A stretch of DNA of 20,063 nucleotides from a virus: positions 1 to 20,063 of IMG/VR virus record IMGVR_UViG_3300009553_000529. One strand, given 5' to 3'. Below, one piece after another: positions 2 to 20,063 of the stretch. Numbering within the stretch: position 1 is the first letter of the stretch; each line of letters begins with the position of its first letter. The position numbers and the translations under genes were made by a program. The notes beneath the pieces are model-generated. The model worked only from the letters and a program-made list of their open reading frames with translations, did not search any database and was not told where the DNA came from.

Positions 2-250
2 AAGGCGGTCTACCCCGAGGCGTTCCTGCAGGAGGCCGCCTACAGCGTCGCGCTCGAGGAGATGGGCTACCGCGAACCGACCGAGGCGATCGTGCTGCGG
101 TTGCCGAAGGTGGCCAGCGACCCGGGCTTCGAGGCCGTGCCCGTGCCGGCGCGCGCCGAGCTGTTCCCAGTGTTCCTCGCGGCGAAGGCGCTCTGGACCT
201 GGCAGTACGCGAACGAGGCCAAGTGGCGCGCCCGCCGGCGGGTCGCCTGA
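2..250 (+). CDS. PD-(D/E)XK (RecB/Cas4-like) nuclease, C-terminal fragment
   Basis: The gene enters from the left edge and its start lies outside the window; 82 residues are visible. The fragment has the pattern seen at the end of phage RecB/Cas4-like exonucleases: YPEAFLQEAAYSVALEEMG, where the Q and following helix resemble motif QxxxY, then a strand (AIVLRLPK), a second strand and a helix ending in ALWTW. Such enzymes degrade or process DNA ends in phage recombination. The catalytic D/E/K residues would lie upstream and cannot be checked. Its stop overlaps the next start (TGATG), so it heads or continues a rightward operon. The family call is by pattern memory and moderately sure. Confidence 0.6.
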   Translation, partial: KAVYPEAFLQEAAYSVALEEMGYREPTEAIVLRLPKVASDPGFEAVPVPARAELFPVFLAAKALWTWQYANEAKWRARRRVA

Positions 251-482: not shown

Positions 483-496
483 ATGCAAAATTGCAT
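483..496. repeat. Palindrome ATGCAA-AA-TTGCAT over the start codons
   Basis: Six-base perfect arms flank a two-base centre. It is AT-rich in a GC-rich setting and spans both candidate start codons of the gene beginning here. It may be an operator or a translational control element; no binding protein can be named. Confidence 0.3.
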
Positions 497-758
497 GGCG
501 GCCCACACACCCGGCCCGTGGGAATGGGACGGCAAATTCACGGTCGGGATTCCGCACGCGCGAGGCTTGTGTTACTTCCGCGTCGAACCTGAGGACGCGC
601 GCCTCATCGCCGCCGCGCCGGCCCTGCTCGACGAACTGCGCATCGCCCGGAACGTCATCTCGACGGCCTGCGGGGAGCGGGCGCCGTTCGCGAAGGTCGC
701 TCTGGCGCGGATCGACGCCGCGATCGACAAAGCGACTGGCCGTGTCTCAGACGTCTGA
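483..758 (+). CDS. Widespread phage hypothetical protein (ARLIAAAP family)
   Basis: This is a 91-residue protein. It contains HTPGPWEWDG near the N-terminus and DARLIAAAPALLDELR in the middle, a combination typical of a very common small phage protein of unknown function. Two starts are possible: the first ATG at 483 or MAAHTPG at 495. The second fits the usual N-terminus of the family, but neither has a clear Shine-Dalgarno sequence. The start region is covered by a palindrome (483-496) and the last codons by a 20-bp perfect palindrome (743-762). It is the last rightward gene before the attachment region. Confidence 0.75.
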   Translation: MQNCMAAHTPGPWEWDGKFTVGIPHARGLCYFRVEPEDARLIAAAPALLDELRIARNVISTACGERAPFAKVALARIDAAIDKATGRVSDV

Positions 759-1186: not shown

Positions 1187-1212
1187 GCGAAACCTTACCG
1201 GCTGGCCTTACC
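1187..1212. repeat. Left putative integrase arm sites (CCTTACC pair)
   Basis: GCGAAACCTTACC at 1187-1199 is followed by a second CCTTACC at 1206-1212. The same 13-mer and a second CCTTACC recur in the same orientation on the other side of the tRNA core (1362-1386). Paired direct repeats flanking a core are the layout of arm-type sites of lambda-family integrases. Binding is inferred. Confidence 0.55.
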
Positions 1213-1214
1213 AT

Positions 1215-1230
1215 GTTGAAAAGAATCAAC
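1215..1230. repeat. Inverted repeat GTTGA-6-TCAAC next to the att core
   Basis: Five-base perfect arms surround AAAGAA, between the left arm repeats and the tRNA core. It could be an excisionase or host-factor site, or a weak hairpin. A GTTTTCT stretch follows, but the stem is too short to call a terminator. Confidence 0.25.
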
Positions 1231-1247
1231 GTTTTCTGGAGTTCGAC

Positions 1248-1297
1248 GCAGCCTCCGAAGCTGTAGGCCAGAGGTTCGAATCCTCTCGGGCGCACCA
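1248..1297 (+). other. attP: attP core: 3' half of tRNA-Arg(CCG)
   Basis: The segment folds as the 3' half of a tRNA. It has an anticodon stem GCAGC/GCTGT around loop CTCCGAA (anticodon CCG at 1255-1257, T before it), a five-base variable region, T-arm AGAGG-TTCGAAT-CCTCT, acceptor strand CGGGCGC, discriminator A and CCA. No matching 5' half (acceptor GCGCCCG, D-arm) lies upstream, so this is not a whole tRNA gene. Phages commonly integrate into tRNA genes from the anticodon loop to the 3' end and restore that part. Phage-like genes and arm-like repeats on both sides favour attP. Confidence 0.8.
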
Positions 1298-1320
1298 TTT
1301 TCCCTCTGTAAACATCGGCC

Positions 1321-2610
1321 TCATTCGCGTCGCGTCCGGACACGGCGGGACCGTTTGGGGGGCGAAACCTTACCACCCACCTTACCGGGGCGGCGGGCCG
1401 TCGGCAGCGGCCGCGCGGCCCGACGAGCGACTCGGGAGAGCTTCCCGACCGAGTCCACCTGGTGCGCCTGGACGGCGGCCATCGCATACCGCTGGCTCTG
1501 CTCGATCGTCGCGTGGCCGAGCAGATCCTTGACGAGCACGAGATCCTTCGACGATCGAAACACTTCCGTCCCGAACGTGTGGCGGGTGAGCTCGACCAGG
1601 CCCAACGTCTCGGGGATCGGCGGCAGCCGGCGCCGCGCGCGGACCTTGTTCGCGGCGCGGATCGCGCGCTTGATCGACCGCCCCAGCGACGTCGGGGAGA
1701 ACGGCCGATTGGCGCCCATCGCGAAAAACCGTTTGAGGACCGGCACGGCCGCCGGCATCAGCTGCCGCGGCTTCACCTTGCGCCGGGCGCGCGCGCGCCG
1801 CGATCGCCGCCCCTTCGATCGTTTCGGCGGCGTCACGGTCAGAAGCTCCCAATTGACGTGCGCGGGTTGCAGCTGGCCCAGTTGTTTCGGGGGACAGCCA
1901 GTGACGAGCATCGTTTCGAAGCGGATGCGACTGAGCGAGCCGGCTTCGCGCGCTTCGTCTTTCTTCGAGCGCGTGACGTCCGGCATGTACGACAGGATTT
2001 CGTACGCGAGCGCGAACGTGTGGCCCTTCGGCAGCTCCTCGGGCGGCTCCGCCTCGTCGACCTCGCGCACCGGGTTCCGCGCATGCAGCCCGTCGAGCAC
2101 CGTGAAGAGGTTCTCGAGCGCGCGGAGCCGATGATTGACAGCCGACGCGGAGAGGGGCAGGGCGCGGGTTTCCCAGCGCGCCTTCTCCCCCTTGGGTTTC
2201 ACGAGCACCTGCCGCGGCCCGACGGTCAACCACAGGTCGCGCTGCGCGCGGATTTCGTGCGGCTGGATGTCCGTGCGCGGCCGCTCGCCGAAGATCACCG
2301 CCCACTCCCGAATGTGCTTGCGCCGATCCTTGATCCCGACCATCGCCTGCACGGCGTCGAGGTAGATCTCCGCGTCCGCGAGAAAGCCCTCACCGACCGG
2401 GATCGGATCGTCGCCCTTCTTGCGGCGCGCCTCGACGCGGCGATCCTCCTGCCAGGCCTGCATCTCCTTGATCGTCGGCTCATAGGTGTCGGTCCGACGA
2501 AACCGCTTCGATCGCACGCGGCCGTCGGGATAGCCGGGCCAGGGCACCCACTGAAAGACCCGAAACCCGGTCGCCGTCGCGACGATACCGGTCGGCAGTG
2601 CGCGCGCCAT
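1321..2610 (-). CDS. int: Tyrosine recombinase (phage integrase)
   Basis: This 429-residue protein integrates and excises the phage at the adjacent tRNA-Arg core. The N-terminus (about 1-60) looks like an arm-binding domain, residues 75-175 like the SAM-like core-binding domain, and 190-385 like the catalytic domain. Visible motifs are RHTFGTEVF (343-351), LGH (364-366) and the tyrosine in QSQRYA (Y375). The usual first arginine box reads TGCPPKQLGQL (from 237), with proline where TGxR is expected, and no histidine precedes RHTF, so the active site is divergent. The basic tail (400-429) is encoded over the right arm repeats. The start overlaps an upstream stop (TAATG), implying coupling to the repressor region. 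Confidence 0.92.
   Translation of the reverse strand: MARALPTGIVATATGFRVFQWVPWPGYPDGRVRSKRFRRTDTYEPTIKEMQAWQEDRRVEARRKKGDDPIPVGEGFLADAEIYLDAVQAMVGIKDRRKHIREWAVIFGERPRTDIQPHEIRAQRDLWLTVGPRQVLVKPKGEKARWETRALPLSASAVNHRLRALENLFTVLDGLHARNPVREVDEAEPPEELPKGHTFALAYEILSYMPDVTRSKKDEAREAGSLSRIRFETMLVTGCPPKQLGQLQPAHVNWELLTVTPPKRSKGRRSRRARARRKVKPRQLMPAAVPVLKRFFAMGANRPFSPTSLGRSIKRAIRAANKVRARRRLPPIPETLGLVELTRHTFGTEVFRSSKDLVLVKDLLGHATIEQSQRYAMAAVQAHQVDSVGKLSRVARRAARPLPTARRPGKVGGKVSPPKRSRRVRTRRE
1362..1386. repeat. Right putative integrase arm sites (CCTTACC pair)
   Basis: GCGAAACCTTACC (1362-1374) plus CCTTACC (1380-1386) match the left pair in orientation and nearly in spacing (12 versus 13 bases). They lie inside the 3' end of the integrase gene, where they encode its GKVGGKV segment. 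Confidence 0.55.
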
Positions 2611-5990: not shown

Positions 5991-6254
5991 ACGAGCGACC
6001 GTCGGCGGATCCAGGACGGGGTCGAACCTGAGTCCGCCGACTCACCGGTGAGCACTACATCGCGTCGGATCGATCCAGCCTCCCAGCACGGATCGGGTCT
6101 GACACACACGGCCCGACGATCGGCTGCAGCCTGGAAACTTCAGGCCGACCGGGGGCGAGAGGCGCGCGTCGATGTCGGCTGGAATAGCCAGAAATTACCA
6201 AACTCTTTTTTGCCCTGCAAGCGTCTCAAATGACTGCGCTCCGATCGGACGCCG
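5991..6254. promoter_or_regulatory. 264-base non-coding leader before the replication gene
   Basis: No convincing gene is present. GTCGGCGGA (6001-6009) and TCCGCCGAC (6033-6041) form a perfect 9-bp stem with a 23-base loop. It is followed at once by the palindrome CTCACCGGTGAG (6042-6053), which shares the CACCGGTG centre of the origin iterons. A short AT-rich patch (about 6189-6208, with T6) lies nearer the next gene. A promoter is expected but its boxes could not be fixed. Confidence 0.45.
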
Positions 6255-6995: not shown

Positions 6996-7782
6996 CCTTC
7001 CCCGGAACAGCGCCGCCGAGATTCAGCGACTGCGGGATTTGCCGTATCACGATGGCTATCTGAAATCCTCGTGGTGGCGCCGGCGCCGACACGTCCGGCT
7101 GCAGAAGGCCAAGGGCAAATGCGAGAAGTGTGGAGCCGTCACCTCGTTCCAGGACGTGCATCACGTGCACTACGACCGACTGGGCGAGGAGCGCGATAGT
7201 GATCTTGAAGTGGTCTGCCGTGACTGCCACGGCAAGGCGCATTTCGACCAGAGTCGCCAGCAGAACATCGGGGTCTACGAAAAACTCGCGCGCGAAACGC
7301 TGCGCCTCGACAAGCCCACGACGGCGACTGACTTCAAAGACGCGTTTCGGCTACGACTCGACCAGATACACCTCCCGATCGACCATCGGGTCGACGACGC
7401 CGTCTCGATCGTGTGGAAGCACGAAGCCGTGAGCCTGGCTAGTGAGGAACGGCGGGCGCGCGTCGCGCACGTCCTGGCGAAGGCGGGCGAGCTGCCGCCG
7501 ATCAGTGTGCCCGAGGGGATGGCGTTGCTGCGTCGGATGGGCTACTCGCGCGTGCCGGTGCGCGGGATGCCGACGATGTTCGGGCCCGGTACCGGCGTCG
7601 CGTTCATCAGAGCTCGCGCGGCCGAACGGTTGAAGGGAACCCGCTGTCCGGCCTGCGCGCATCACGGCGTCCAGCTCTCACGCGAGCCGCCGGGTTGGGT
7701 GTGGTGCGAGCACTGTCATCACAAATGGGATCTCCTCAGTGAGGAAGTTGAGCGCCTCGGGTTCACCGGGAGTTCTGAATGA
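6988..7782 (+). CDS. HNH endonuclease-like protein with C-terminal zinc ribbon
   Basis: This 264-residue protein has an N-terminal HNH/treble-clef domain: C45-x2-C48, H58-H59 (DVHHVHYDRLG), then C77-x2-C80-H81 and H85 (CRDCHGKAHF), with the usual acidic segment between. The C-terminus has a second zinc ribbon, C220-x2-C223 and C240-x2-C243 (CPACAHHG, then WCEHCHHKWD). The middle (about 95-215) is unrecognised and helical. HNH proteins cut DNA in homing, packaging or restriction roles. Placed directly after the origin gene and overlapping it by eight bases, a recombination or replication-linked nuclease is possible. The two-zinc-module architecture is unusual. Confidence 0.75.
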   Translation: MADLPRNSAAEIQRLRDLPYHDGYLKSSWWRRRRHVRLQKAKGKCEKCGAVTSFQDVHHVHYDRLGEERDSDLEVVCRDCHGKAHFDQSRQQNIGVYEKLARETLRLDKPTTATDFKDAFRLRLDQIHLPIDHRVDDAVSIVWKHEAVSLASEERRARVAHVLAKAGELPPISVPEGMALLRRMGYSRVPVRGMPTMFGPGTGVAFIRARAAERLKGTRCPACAHHGVQLSREPPGWVWCEHCHHKWDLLSEEVERLGFTGSSE

Positions 7783-9223: not shown

Positions 9224-9462
9224 AAGCAATCCTCACGATCGGCGTCTCGCTCGTGCCGGGCGTCTGCCGCTGGTGTCAGTGCACCGAGACGACGCCGTGC
9301 GCGAACGGCTGCGCATGGGTCGAGCGGTCCTACACCCTCTGCTCCGAATGCGTGCCCCTCGACAAAGCGCTGCGGACGAGGGCCGGCCGCCGCCAGCTCG
9401 CCGAGTTCATCCAGGAGCATGTCGAAGGGGGCGCGATGCCTGTGACCGAGGCGGGCCGATGA
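9205..9462 (+). CDS. Small cysteine-rich zinc-binding phage protein
   Basis: The 85-residue protein carries C21-x2-C24-x-C26, C32, C36 and C46-x2-C49 (GVCRWCQCTETTPCANGC, then LCSECV). This seven-cysteine pattern is very common among small phage proteins and is usually described as a zinc-binding hypothetical. A helical tail with RAGRRQLAEFIQEHVEGG follows. GAAGGGAAC upstream may serve as a ribosome site. It ends in an ATGA overlap with the double-HTH gene. Role unknown. Confidence 0.7.
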   Translation: MAKKRVKAILTIGVSLVPGVCRWCQCTETTPCANGCAWVERSYTLCSECVPLDKALRTRAGRRQLAEFIQEHVEGGAMPVTEAGR

Positions 9463-10031
9463 TCCCGAACGTGGAACGTGGAACGTCCCAGACGTCCGAG
9501 ACTCGACACCGTGTCTCAGACAGTGTCTATGACTCCTGGCTCACGAAAGACCAGGCCGCCGCGGCGATCGGCGGGTCGACCAAGATGGTCGAACGGCTGG
9601 CCGCGGAGGGGAAGATCCAGCAAGCCTCTACGCAGCGCGAGGGCCGCGGCGCCTTCCGGACCGTCTACCACCCTGACGACGTCGCCCGCATCGCGCGGGA
9701 GCGGCAGCCAGGGGCCACGGCGTTCGTTTTACCGGTCGGTGTGACCCCGCCGAGCAACGGGAACGGACACGGGACACGATCCGCCCTCCAAACGCGGGAG
9801 ATCGTGTCCCCCCCGGAGGGGTCGAGTTCGGGTATGGAGGCGCTGACCGCGTTCGCCGTCGCCCTGCGACAGTTGTCTGAGACGTCTGAGACACGATCGG
9901 CGTACGTCGACAAGGCCGAGGCCCTCGCGATCGCCGGCGTGTCGTATGGGGAGCTGCGGGCGGCGGTCCAGGCGGGTGAGGTGAAACAGCGGGGCCGGCG
10001 GTACCGGCGGCAGGACCTGGAGGCGCTGTGA
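9459..10031 (+). CDS. Double helix-turn-helix regulator with SQTSET linkers
   Basis: The 190-residue protein has two excisionase/MerR-like domains. One is at about 26-80 (WLTKDQAAAAIGGSTKMVER, then YHPDDVARIARER) and one at 148-190 (YVDKAEALAIAGVSYGELRA, then RRYRRQDLEAL). A Pro/Ser/Gly-rich linker joins them. SQTSET (10-15) and SETSET (140-145) precede the two domains and are encoded by GTCTCAGAC/GTCTGAGAC-type DNA also found at 743-762. A DNA-binding early or late regulator with two half-site readers is likely. The sites in its own gene could be its operators, which is inference. Confidence 0.65.
   Translation: MIPNVERGTSQTSETRHRVSDSVYDSWLTKDQAAAAIGGSTKMVERLAAEGKIQQASTQREGRGAFRTVYHPDDVARIARERQPGATAFVLPVGVTPPSNGNGHGTRSALQTREIVSPPEGSSSGMEALTAFAVALRQLSETSETRSAYVDKAEALAIAGVSYGELRAAVQAGEVKQRGRRYRRQDLEAL
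9467..9528. repeat. Tandem GAACGTG heptamers and GTCTCAGAC-type units
   Basis: Three heptamers (GAACGTG, GAACGTG, GAACGTC) run 9467-9487. They are followed by CAGACGTCCGAGAC (9489-9502), an imperfect copy of the palindrome at 743-762, and GTGTCTCAGACAGTGTCT (9511-9528). All lie in the 5' end of the double-HTH gene, close to its start. Confidence 0.5.
9875..9892. repeat. GTCTGAGAC direct duplication
   Basis: Two abutting copies of GTCTGAGAC form an 18-mer that differs from the palindrome core at 744-761 by one base. It encodes SETSET just before the second HTH domain of the same gene. Confidence 0.5.
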
Positions 10032-14783: not shown

Positions 14784-15090
14784 CGGCCACGGCGTCCGCC
14801 GGACGTATCAACGCGGCTGCAGCTGCCCGCGCTGCACCGACGCGAATCGCCAGTACAGCGCACGCTATCGAGAGGCGCGACGCGCGGGTCGGCCGCTCCT
14901 CGGGGCGCATGTCCCCGGCACCGAGGCGGCGCGGATCATCGCGGCACTCGTCCAGGAGGGCTACTTGAAGCAAGAGATCGCGGCCTGGCTGGGCCATCAG
15001 CGGCGGGAGCTGCAGTTCCGCCGCGGCGCCGGCGTGACGTGGCGGACGACCTTGCGGCTGCGCGTGATTCAGCGGCGAGTCTGCGGATGA
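14776..15090 (+). CDS. Phage HTH protein with Cys-rich head
   Basis: The 104-residue protein uses a GTG start. The head GVRRTYQRGCSCPRCTDANR carries C15, C17 and C20 and the HG-x-R-x-x-Y-x-x-GCxCxxC pattern common in phage proteins near terminase. Residues about 50-80 (GTEAARIIAALVQEGYLKQE, then IAAWLGHQRREL) read as a helix-turn-helix where Q73-E95 would touch DNA. It lies directly before TerS and could regulate the late operon or help packaging. The stop overlaps the TerS start by ATGA. Confidence 0.65.
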   Translation: MADGHGVRRTYQRGCSCPRCTDANRQYSARYREARRAGRPLLGAHVPGTEAARIIAALVQEGYLKQEIAAWLGHQRRELQFRRGAGVTWRTTLRLRVIQRRVCG

Positions 15091-15734
15091 CAGCAAAGAA
15101 AAAGGCGGCGAAGATGAAACCTCGGCGCCGTCGCGCCAGCAAGCCGCACGGGGTCGGTGTAAAGGTTGCGCCGCGTCAACCATCGGCGCCGGTCCTCGAC
15201 CCCGTAGGGCCGGCGGGTCTCTCCGTCCAGCATCAACGGTTCGTCGCCGAATACCTCATCGACCTGAACGCCACCGCGGCGTATCGCCGGACCTACGGCC
15301 TGGTGAAAGATGCCGACGTCAGCGGCCCGCGGCTGTTGGGAATTGTTGGGATCGCGGAGGCCATCGCTGTCGGCGCCGCGGCGCACCTGGCGGCCAACGA
15401 CCTCAGCGCGTCTCGCGTGCTCGAGGAGCTGCGCCGCATCGCGTTCGCCAACGTGCGCGAGTATTTCGAGGACACCGGCGACGCGAAACACCCGCACAGC
15501 CTCAGCGTCGAGCAAGGCGCCGCGCTCGCCGGCTTCGAGGTCCTGATCAAGAACGCGAAGGCCGGCGACGGCGTCACCGACACGATCCACAAGTTCAAGC
15601 TCTGGGACAAAGTGAAATCCCTCGAGCTGCTCGCGAAGCACTTCCACCTGGTCGACGAAGTCCTGACCATCGACACGGTCAAGGCCGATGAGCGGGTCGC
15701 GCGCCTGACGGCCGCGCGGAAGCGCACCACATGA
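15087..15734 (+). CDS. terS: Terminase small subunit
   Basis: The 215-residue protein has a Lys/Arg-rich start (MTAKKKAAKMKPRRRRASKP), then GLSVQHQRFVAEYLIDLNAT and AAYRRTYG (44-71), the hallmark of the Terminase_2 small-subunit family, where a helix-turn-helix binds the packaging start site. Residues 107-125 (SASRVLEELRRIAFANVRE) and the helical C-terminus with DKVKSLELLAKHFHLVDE complete the family pattern. TerS recognises viral DNA and hands it to TerL. ATGA coupling to both neighbours fits the late packaging operon. Confidence 0.9.
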   Translation: MTAKKKAAKMKPRRRRASKPHGVGVKVAPRQPSAPVLDPVGPAGLSVQHQRFVAEYLIDLNATAAYRRTYGLVKDADVSGPRLLGIVGIAEAIAVGAAAHLAANDLSASRVLEELRRIAFANVREYFEDTGDAKHPHSLSVEQGAALAGFEVLIKNAKAGDGVTDTIHKFKLWDKVKSLELLAKHFHLVDEVLTIDTVKADERVARLTAARKRTT

Positions 15735-17284
15735 GCGCGGGCTGGCGGGCCGCGACGCACGTGGCCGCCGGTGCCCAGAAACGGACCGCGGAGACGACCG
15801 CGACGGTCGAAGCCGACATCGAGCGCTGGGTCGCGAGCTGCTACTTCGATCCGCTCAAGTTCGTGCGCGGCGCGTATCCCTGGGGGGACCCCGGGCCCCT
15901 CGCCGACGAAACCGGGCCCGACGACAATCAAACCGAATTCCTCACGGAACTGGGCCGCGAGGTGACGGCGCGCGCGTTCGACGGCCTGGCGCCCGTCATG
16001 CCCGTCCTGATGGGGGAGACCTCGGGCCACGGCACCGGCAAGAGCGCGCTCGGCGCGTGGATCGCGGACTGGATCCGGTCCACCCGCCCGCACTCGATCG
16101 GCACGGTCACCGCGGGCACGGCGACACAGCTCGAGGAGCGCACCTGGGCGGCGATTCTGTTCTGGGGCAAGCTCTCGATCACCGCGCCGTGGTGGGACTT
16201 TCAGTCGCGCGGCATCTACTCGAAAGACTACCCGTCGACCTGGAAGGTCGTCGCGCAAACCAGCAAGGACCAGAACGCGCAGAGCTTCGCCGGCCAGCAC
16301 GCGAAGACGTCGACGTCGTGGTACCTGTTCGACGAGGCGAGCGAGATCGGCGACAAGATTTTCGAAACCGCGTACGGCGGCCTCACCGACGGCGAACCGA
16401 TGATGTTCGTCTGGGGCCAGATGGTCCGGAACACCGGCGAGTTCTACCGCGTGAGTTTCGGCAGCCTCGCCGCGCGCTGGAATCATCGCCGCGTGGACAG
16501 CCGCTCGAGCCGCTTCACCAACAAAGCGCTCATCGAGCAGTGGATTCTCGACTACGGCATCGACAGCGACTACATCAAGGTGCGCGTGCTCGGCCTCCCG
16601 CCGAGCGCGAACGAGCTGCAGTACATCGACAAGGCGCGGATCGACCTGGCGCGCGCTCGCGTGATGGTGCCGCTGCCCGACGATCCGCTGATTGCCGGCT
16701 TCGACGTCTCGGGCGGGGGGAAGGCCTGGAACGTGATCCGCTTCCGCCGCGGCCTCTGCGGCAACCCGCTGGGCGCCGACGGCAAGCCGCTGGGCCCCAT
16801 CCGGATGCCCGGCGAGAAGGACCCGGATCGATCGGCCCGCATCGCGCTCTGCGCGGAGCTGCTCAGCGATCGCCGACCCGGGCACGAGCTCGCCGCCCTG
16901 TTTGTCGACTCCGCCTTCGGCGCCGCGATCGTCTCGCGGCTGCACGCGCTCAAGTTCACCAACGTCCACGAGATCAACTTCGGCGGCGAGAGTCCGGACC
17001 CGCACGACTACAACCGCCGCGCCAACATGGCCCACAAGTGCAAGGACTACCTGCTCCTCGGGTCGCTGCCGGACGAGGACCGCCTCTGTGAGCAGCTCGG
17101 CCTCGCCGGCTATCACCACACCAAGGGCAAGCTCGTCATGGAATCGAAAGAGAGCATCCAGGCGCGCGGGGAAGCGAGCCCGGACGACAGCGACGCCTTC
17201 TGGTTGACCTTCGCGAGCGCCGTCGCGGTTCCACAAAAACCCACCACCCCCGCGCCGGCGCCGCCGTCGTCGCGATGGGGCTGA
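15731..17284 (+). CDS. terL: Terminase large subunit
   Basis: The 517-residue protein is the DNA-packaging motor and nuclease. The ATPase has Walker A SGHGTGKS (98-105) and Walker B YLFDEASE (198-205, D201/E202), plus a QLEERTWA helix after the first strand. The C-terminal RNase H-like nuclease shows three likely acidic positions, D325 in GFDVSGGGK, D393 in FVDSAFGAAI, and D485/D487 in SPDDSDAF. The P/A-rich tail (501-517) is probably disordered. Full length for the family. It is coupled to TerS by ATGA, and the next gene starts inside its last codons. Confidence 0.93.
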   Translation: MSAGWRAATHVAAGAQKRTAETTATVEADIERWVASCYFDPLKFVRGAYPWGDPGPLADETGPDDNQTEFLTELGREVTARAFDGLAPVMPVLMGETSGHGTGKSALGAWIADWIRSTRPHSIGTVTAGTATQLEERTWAAILFWGKLSITAPWWDFQSRGIYSKDYPSTWKVVAQTSKDQNAQSFAGQHAKTSTSWYLFDEASEIGDKIFETAYGGLTDGEPMMFVWGQMVRNTGEFYRVSFGSLAARWNHRRVDSRSSRFTNKALIEQWILDYGIDSDYIKVRVLGLPPSANELQYIDKARIDLARARVMVPLPDDPLIAGFDVSGGGKAWNVIRFRRGLCGNPLGADGKPLGPIRMPGEKDPDRSARIALCAELLSDRRPGHELAALFVDSAFGAAIVSRLHALKFTNVHEINFGGESPDPHDYNRRANMAHKCKDYLLLGSLPDEDRLCEQLGLAGYHHTKGKLVMESKESIQARGEASPDDSDAFWLTFASAVAVPQKPTTPAPAPPSSRWG

Positions 17285-18664: not shown

Positions 18665-18840
18665 AGGACCTCCTCGCCTTCGTGTATCAGCGCGTCGTCG
18701 CCGCCAACACGCTCGACGTCGCCGTGACGCTCGTCCGTCGTGACTGGAAACCGCGCCCGACGCCCCTCGCGCATGCCCTGCTCCATGACCGCCAGCGCCT
18801 CGATCCGACCTGGCTCGCACGTCAGTTGGCGGGCGCCTGA
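18661..18840 (+). CDS. Small hypothetical late protein
   Basis: This 59-residue product was found by translating the gap (MKDLLAFVYQRVVAANTLDV, then AVTLVRRDWKPRPTPLAHAL). The ATG overlaps the previous stop, and its own stop overlaps the portal start (TGATG), so it is almost certainly translated. The sequence is helical and basic, ends DRQRLDPTWLARQLAGA and matches no family I know. Confidence 0.6.
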   Translation: MKDLLAFVYQRVVAANTLDVAVTLVRRDWKPRPTPLAHALLHDRQRLDPTWLARQLAGA

Positions 18841-20063
18841 TGGCCGAGTATCCCGATCCCGACAAGGCGAACGACCCCAAGCCCGGGTCGGACGAGGCGA
18901 TCCTCAAAGACATCCTCGACGACTACGACTACGACGTCGCCAACTGGGCGCCGATCCGCCTGCAGGCCAACATCGACGTCGAGTACGCGAGCAACAACAC
19001 CTGGGACGAGGCCGACACCACGCTGCGCGGCAACCGGCCGATGGTCAACCTCGATCAGCTCTCCCAGTACCGCAACCAGGTCGAGAACACCGTCCGCCAG
19101 AACAAGCGCGGCGTGAAGGTCTCGCCGGCGGGGAAGGGCGCGACGCCGGAGAGCGCCGAGCTGCGCGCGAACCGCATCCGCGAGATCGAATACCAGTCGC
19201 ACGCGCAGGAGGCCTACAGCCAGGCGTTCTCGGATTGCCTGACGCGCGGCTTCGGCTGGGCGCGCATCGTCGCCGAGTACGAGGACGAGGACAGCGACAA
19301 CCAGGTGTTTCGGACCAAGAGCATCCCGAACCCCAGCCAGGTCGTCCCGGACACCGATGGCCAGAGCACCAGCGGCCGCGACTGGACCCGGTGCGTGTTC
19401 CTCGATTCGCTGAGCCACCGCGAGTTCAAGAAGGCCTACCCGGACGCCGCGATCCGCGACTTCGACCCCGAGACGATCGCGGCTGCCCCGAAAGGCTGGC
19501 TCACGCCGACGCGCGTCCAGATCGCCGAGGCGTGGCGCGTGACGGAGACCCCGAACCCGCGCGGGACGGGCAAGCCGACGCGGGAAGTCTGCATGTACCT
19601 CACGAATGGGCTCGAGCTCCTGGCGAAGCGCGGGGAACCGAAGAAGCATCCGTGGAAGGGCAAGTACATCCCCTTCGGCGCGTGCCTCGGGCGCATCGTC
19701 TACAAGGACAGCGCCGACGGCGCGAGCCAGAAACTGATCCAGTCCTACATCCGGTTCGCGCGCGACGCGGCCAAGACGTTCAACTGGACCTGGTCGACGA
19801 TCCTCGAGAAGCTCGCGCTCCCGGTGAAGGCCTCGCTCATGGGCTACAAGGGCCAGGCCGACCAGGACACGATCACCAAGATCACGCAGGCGACCCAGAC
19901 GCACGTCCCCTGGCTCGAGTTCAACGCGGTGATGGACGCGACGGGCACCGCGGTCCTCCCGCTGCCGCAGTACGGCACGCGCGAGCCCGACATTCAGGCG
20001 GACCTGATGGTCGCCGAAGCCTGCTCGCGCAACATCCAGAACGCGCTCGGCCACTTCAACGCG
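18840..20063 (+). CDS. P22-type portal protein, 5' part
   Basis: The first 408 residues are present and the gene leaves the window. It has the P22 portal pattern: RPMVNLDQLSQYRNQVENTV then RQNKRGVKVSP (66-96), AELRANRIREIEYQSHAQEA YSQAFSDCLTRGFGWARIVAEYEDEDSDN split over helices, then NPSQVVPDTDGQ and GRDWTRCVFLDSLSHREFKK. The portal is the ring at the capsid vertex through which DNA is packed and ejected. It follows TerL after six small genes, and a coat and scaffold gene are expected next. The call rests on motif memory and order. Confidence 0.85.
   Translation, partial: MAEYPDPDKANDPKPGSDEAILKDILDDYDYDVANWAPIRLQANIDVEYASNNTWDEADTTLRGNRPMVNLDQLSQYRNQVENTVRQNKRGVKVSPAGKGATPESAELRANRIREIEYQSHAQEAYSQAFSDCLTRGFGWARIVAEYEDEDSDNQVFRTKSIPNPSQVVPDTDGQSTSGRDWTRCVFLDSLSHREFKKAYPDAAIRDFDPETIAAAPKGWLTPTRVQIAEAWRVTETPNPRGTGKPTREVCMYLTNGLELLAKRGEPKKHPWKGKYIPFGACLGRIVYKDSADGASQKLIQSYIRFARDAAKTFNWTWSTILEKLALPVKASLMGYKGQADQDTITKITQATQTHVPWLEFNAVMDATGTAVLPLPQYGTREPDIQADLMVAEACSRNIQNALGHFNA

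Follow-up and report, generated by a model that had tools for sequence, protein, structure and literature searches.

A tRNA-Arg(CCG) 3′-half attachment site with direct arm repeats in a viral record, and a clade of phage integrases with an apparently relocated catalytic arginine

A viral record of 20,063 bases, analysed here over its full length and referred to as the window, carries near its left end a fragment of a tRNA gene flanked by short repeats, towards which a tyrosine integrase gene is read (Table 1). This arrangement raises the question whether the locus is an intact phage attachment site, and how such a site could be used by an integrase in which the first arginine of the catalytic set (Arg I) is missing. 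The record is linear by classification and has no end repeats, and its GC content ranges from 64 to 72% along the window. The joint reading of site and protein, which we hold with high confidence, is that the locus represents the intact attP of a tRNA-targeting temperate tailed phage, together with a member of an integrase clade that most likely uses a relocated arginine, R264.

Table 1. Features of the attachment site and of its flanks in the window
Feature	Position	Strand	Basis
Phage exonuclease, C-terminal part	2–250	+	phrog_298, E 1.6e-5
Phage protein, function unassigned	483–758	+	phrog_1273, E 1.5e-10
P-arm repeat, first site (GCGAAACCTTACC)	1187–1199	+	no mismatch in G005, 1 in G006, 2 in L054
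P-arm repeat, second site (CCTTACC)	1206–1212	+	sequence repeat
attP core, tRNA-Arg(CCG) 3′ half from the anticodon stem through CCA	1248–1297	+	host tRNA identity
Tyrosine integrase, 429 aa	1321–2610	-	profile matches, structure model
GTCCGGACA block with 8-bp palindrome, inside the integrase frame	1334–1342	+	present in 4/4 related attP regions
P′-arm repeat, first site (GCGAAACCTTACC), within the integrase 3′ coding end	1362–1374	+	exact in 4/4 related sites
P′-arm repeat, second site (CCTTACC), within the integrase 3′ coding end	1380–1386	+	sequence repeat
MerR-like/excisionase-type regulator, distant from the integrase gene	9273–10031	+	phrog_2474, E 1.9e-11; phrog_66, E 1.6e-6
Terminase small subunit (15039–15734) and large subunit (15731–17284)	15039–17284	+	profile matches
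P22-like portal protein, truncated at the record end	18840–20063	+	PF16510, E 1.1e-59

The core comprises 50 nt and contains the anticodon stem-loop GCAGC-CTCCGAA-GCTGT (anticodon CCG), the variable loop, the T arm, the acceptor strand and CCA. An earlier note on this DNA had described it as a clean tRNA 3′ half and had proposed a search for a host tRNA-Arg(CCG) gene with an identical 50-bp 3′ end; such genes, intact according to ARAGORN, are found in four Acidobacteriota MAGs, where the 3′ end matches the core base for base (50/50 nt). When the genome collection was scanned with the exact 50-mer, only these MAGs matched; the 50-mer is also present in one other viral contig. Identity between the core and the host tRNA begins with the first anticodon-stem base, with no extra bases on the left, and ends 0–3 bases past CCA. 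The claim that the 5′ half of the tRNA is absent is borne out as well: ARAGORN detects no tRNA in the window, and the Rfam tRNA score, 21.3 bits, stays below the gathering score of 29. When the host 5′ side and the phage 3′ side are joined in silico to give attL, ARAGORN calls one full tRNA-Arg(CCG), at the level of sequence only; it calls no tRNA in the attP and attR sequences. The tRNA-dependent lysogeny outlined in PMC10865867 was set aside, because the core extends to CCA and thus rebuilds the entire tRNA.

On each side of the core the 13-mer GCGAAACCTTACC is accompanied by CCTTACC, in one orientation, and the repeats span positions 1187–1386 exactly, as had been noted before. Their description as symmetric is loose, since they are direct repeats, with no inversion. 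The left 13-mer begins 61 nt ahead of the core and the right one 65 nt past the final core base, and the two CCTTACC sites of a pair are spaced by 13 nt (left) and 12 nt (right). The arm repeats are beyond chance expectation: CCTTACC occurs four times in the 20,063 bases (both strands counted), always on the plus strand and within the attP site (starts at 1193, 1206, 1368 and 1380), compared with a mean of 0.44 in 500 dinucleotide shuffles, one of which reached four; a repeated 13-mer in the 270-nt region was absent from all 500 dinucleotide shuffles. The P′ arm, on the right, sits within the integrase reading frame. Its codons are identical in all four phages compared below at 7/7 scored sites, a small sample, versus 100/231 for the whole gene, which fits selection on DNA in addition to protein. 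For the GTCCGGACA block, coding constraint may be the source of its conservation, and the block, with its palindrome, is a possible site for an additional protein. An IHF-type site near position 1224 was considered on the basis of the consensus and rejected, as this block is not conserved in G006 or L054.

The site was compared with those of three related phage records, G005, G006 and L054, the integrases of which are 86%, 73% and 70% identical to that of the window, respectively. A common layout is observed in all four, with a core, spaced arm repeats and an integrase gene reading toward the site. The arm blocks, the short P′ arm blocks and the core, save three positions, are common to the four sites, and the linkers diverge. 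One of the variable core positions is located in the anticodon loop and the other two form a pair in the T stem. The left 13-mer is exact in two of the four sites and the right one in all of them. Recurrence of the arm blocks in the three relatives, together with the presence of phage genes on both sides, supports the earlier assignment of the site as an attP with arm repeats.

Phage-family matches flank the site on both sides in the window, as claimed previously, and also in two relatives. The right flank of the window contains genes of replication type, an HNH type, the terminase and the P22-like portal; left of attP a virion structural protein is encoded in G005, and a portal and a tape measure protein in G006. 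The regulator at 9273–10031 may be regarded as a candidate directionality factor. The same integration module is observed in a phage with a P22-like portal (the window) and in a tape-measure phage (G006; L017, L018), and since the two share the module yet differ in build, it has moved between phages of different build. Two further observations concern G006. The integrase frame (L007), starting at 6001, has no stop ahead of the attP core (7319–7368) and runs on across the tRNA half and into the P arm; on integration the last residues of the protein would therefore change. In addition, a helicase-like gene (L018:10028–11293, phrog_16) adjoins attP and is preceded by an HNH-like stretch recognized by eye; these genes are possibly defence or nuclease cargo.

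The proposal that sampling caught the genome as a circle, as a replicating phage or as a tandem prophage does not follow from these data, because an intact attP occurs in linear virion DNA too, and the window record is linear. Circularity is shown only for a relative, the L054/L065 contig, by a 123-bp terminal repeat with the integrase spanning its ends.

No integrated copy, attL or attR was found, the integrase search giving no match in 399 genomes of the class and three distant ones in 396 genomes of the phylum; a search of 193 genomes from a single class for the core variant of L007/L054 gave no match. The contigs around the matching Acidobacteriota tRNAs have a GC content of about 55%, compared with 64–72% along the window. 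Since this gap is large for a phage and its host, the true host may be other than Acidobacteriota. The host is uncertain, as the core match is confined to Acidobacteriota, yet the GC contents differ and no integrated close relative was found.

The catalytic columns of the window integrase are occupied by P240 (at the Arg I place), R264-x-K266-G267, R343, H344, H366 and Y375. Box I reads TGCPPKQL, with a proline at the Arg I position, the first His of the RKHRH pentad is replaced by Val, and a V-E-L-T-R stretch is present with one inserted residue. The Pfam score is 24.7, below the cut-off of 27.1, and phage integrase profiles match weakly. A tyrosine-recombinase fold is predicted by an AlphaFold model based on 17 sequences (mean pLDDT 81), which replaced a poor model from 4 sequences (mean pLDDT 51.7). 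In this model the N-terminus shows a strand-strand-strand-helix arrangement (strands 9–12, 15–24 and 27–38, helix 47–67), followed by core-binding and catalytic parts, and the N-terminal domain is predicted to be of the arm-binding type. The structural matches include λ Int (1z19_B, Z 15.9, rmsd 4.1, 257 aligned residues; 1z1b_B, Z 16.1, rmsd 18.1, 308 residues aligned over model residues 1–391); further fold matches are Tn1549 Int, Xer, and the YopR and SroF chains at Z 9.3 and 9.9.

A set of 146 loci with related proteins was reduced to 81 non-redundant relatives by removal of near-duplicates; two of the relatives gathered were drawn from genomes. Not included were L065, which lies on the contig of L054, and L168, which did not match the profile. 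Arg I is absent in 67 of the 81. Its place is taken by Pro in 35 of these proteins, Thr in 14, Ala in 11 and Ser in two, and by Glu, Asn, Gly, Gln and Ile in one each. R264, K266, G267, R343, H344 and Y375 are kept in all 67, the R-x-K-G motif being invariant; the Arg I and R264 columns lay outside the patterns used for the scan. Tyr replaces the first His in 63/67, a count enriched by design, because the scan patterns held RHTF-, YDLRHS- or TGL-type stretches. In a canonical set of host recombinases from the four MAGs (25 non-redundant of 37 profile-matching open frames), Arg I is present in 25/25. No relatives of the window integrase were found in 50,697 phage records; L061 and L066 likewise gave no matches to phage records, L062, L064 and L068 matched weakly, and L072 and L061 gave no matches to plasmids.

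When the trait columns are excluded from tree building, the 67 Arg I-less proteins fall inside a clade of 73 rows (SH-aLRT 98) together with six Arg I-positive proteins, and the Arg I label requires 4 changes, versus a mean of 31.8 when shuffled. Three of the six nested proteins, L112, L114 and L115, keep the lysine and have Thr in the R264 column. In our reading, the Arg I and R264 columns offer two alternative seats to one catalytic arginine. An arginine at the R264 place (K-2) is not diagnostic by itself, because it is seen by eye, in addition to Arg I, in 10 of the 25 canonical host recombinases and in the viral L164. A Fisher test on a 67/0 versus 0/14 table was made and its p-value discarded, as the alignment had masked this arginine in some of the Arg I-positive proteins and the table is in part an alignment effect; the position tolerates Arg anyway, and the 2×2 table overstates exclusivity.

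A tRNA 3′ half with CCA is present at 36 of the 67 Arg I-less loci, nearly always 3′ of the integrase gene, and five of these 36 also have a complete tRNA; the other 31 have no tRNA half. In a control with 13 of the 67 loci, a half was found at seven and none was found in 100 shuffles. In view of these counts, the Arg I-less proteins look like tRNA-targeting phage integrases. Inspection by eye (L129, L119, L124, L189 and others) shows CAC (Val) halves at several loci and CCT (Arg) at many others, and the clade seems to prefer a small number of tRNAs. In an Acidobacteriota genome (L051:2445–2472), an Arg I-less integrase gene is followed after 63 nt by a tRNA-Arg(TCG) 3′ half in the same orientation, a layout opposite to that of the window.

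In the proposed mechanism, the integrase would carry out recombination between the 50-bp core and the matching 3′ half in a host tRNA-Arg(CCG) gene, while its N-terminal domain would hold the GCGAAACCTTACC/CCTTACC arm sites on both sides. The crossover point likely lies in the anticodon loop (CTCCGAA), which the stem halves GCAGC and GCTGT enclose, with cuts probably at the edges of this 7-nt loop and the anticodon stem providing the inverted core sites. After integration, attL would carry a complete tRNA, and attR would be left with a 3′ remnant. We infer the direction of control in the same manner as the protein binding and the crossover point. The invariant R264, two residues before the catalytic lysine, most likely does the work of Arg I. 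The attP itself is ordinary in kind, and the integrase is a member of a well-populated variant with a probably relocated catalytic residue.

Several other explanations have to be weighed against this reading. Chance, or an unrelated regulatory element, as the origin of the tRNA fragment and the arm repeats is contradicted by the shuffles and by the conservation in four phages, and can practically be dismissed. It is also very improbable that the window edge cut off a single integrated prophage and that the site is its attL or attR. This would agree with the short left flank, of which only about 1.1 kb lies in the window and whose genes lack homologues in the two compared relatives; however, since the integrase is located 3′ of the core, the 5′ half of the tRNA would be expected immediately upstream of the core in an attL, and it is absent there. 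Instead, the upstream DNA consists of the P arm, conserved in relatives, followed by two phage-family genes. Host DNA at positions 1–1140, which the earlier note named as the finding that would turn the site into attL or attR, is not seen; this stretch holds phage matches (2–250 and 483–758).

The remaining alternatives concern the protein. YopR and SroF of SPβ-type phages are DNA-binding repressors with a recombinase-like fold, and their appearance among the structural matches, together with the missing Arg I, would be compatible with a similar, non-catalytic role for the window protein. This role is improbable, given that the lysine, the second arginine, the neighbouring histidine and the tyrosine nucleophile are invariant in 67/67 proteins, that an intact attP directly adjoins the gene in four phages, that tRNA halves are present at 36/67 relatives, and that active integrases match better (λ Int, Z ~16). 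An integrase that works without any equivalent of Arg I, R264 being a structural or DNA-backbone contact as it maybe is in canonical Xer proteins, appears unlikely, though it deserves some weight. The canonical host proteins with both arginines, again as counted by eye (10/25), speak for such a contact, but all proteins without Arg I keep R264, and the three nested Arg I-positive proteins have Thr in its place. It seems rather probable to us that a broad, working clade of tRNA-targeting temperate-phage integrases moved its first catalytic arginine from box I to the strand before the lysine, with exchanges between the two places within the clade; such a family may also supply a function for the IntDes type (see below).

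Such a clade matters because Arg I, as part of the tyrosine-recombinase pentad, is described as otherwise strictly preserved in PMC8138268. The clade constitutes a large natural set of proteins without Arg I and with attP sites attached, so that a two-position swap can serve as a test of whether a catalytic residue has been relocated. The score of the window integrase below the Pfam cut-off suggests that annotation based on box I and profile cut-offs can miss phage integrases of this type. In the literature searched, mostly freely accessible papers, no report of a phage clade of this Arg I-less type was found, and IntDes and tyrosine recombinase are named together only in PMC8138268.

Among known systems, the λ Int-type arrangement shares with the present one the direct arm repeats on both sides, the integrase gene ending at the site and the predicted arm-binding domain, and the tRNA 3′-half core is as in tRNA-targeting attPs; P22 is a phage that uses a tRNA target. 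The window differs in the unidirectional pairing of GCGAAACCTTACC and CCTTACC, in the location of the P′ pair inside the integrase coding end and in the absence of Arg I. A relocated arginine is a feature of IntDOT, in which the pair R285/K287 would give the same R-x-K spacing as in the window clade. By description in PMC8138268, IntCTnDOT/IntDOT has lost Arg I, uses an arginine further downstream instead and has an arm-binding domain, but belongs to conjugative elements of Bacteroidetes, whereas the proteins described here belong to phages with tRNA targets. IntDes, compared by the description in the same paper and presented there as restricted to Desulfovibrio and of unreported function, is likewise arm-binding; its first Arg is shifted and its first His is replaced by Tyr. 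In the present clade Arg I is absent with an alternative Arg present, and the Tyr is seen in 63/67 proteins. IntDes differs in its confinement to Desulfovibrio, compared with phages with attP sites here, and from the window integrase, which has Val where IntDes has Tyr and carries the V-E-L-T-R stretch with one inserted residue.
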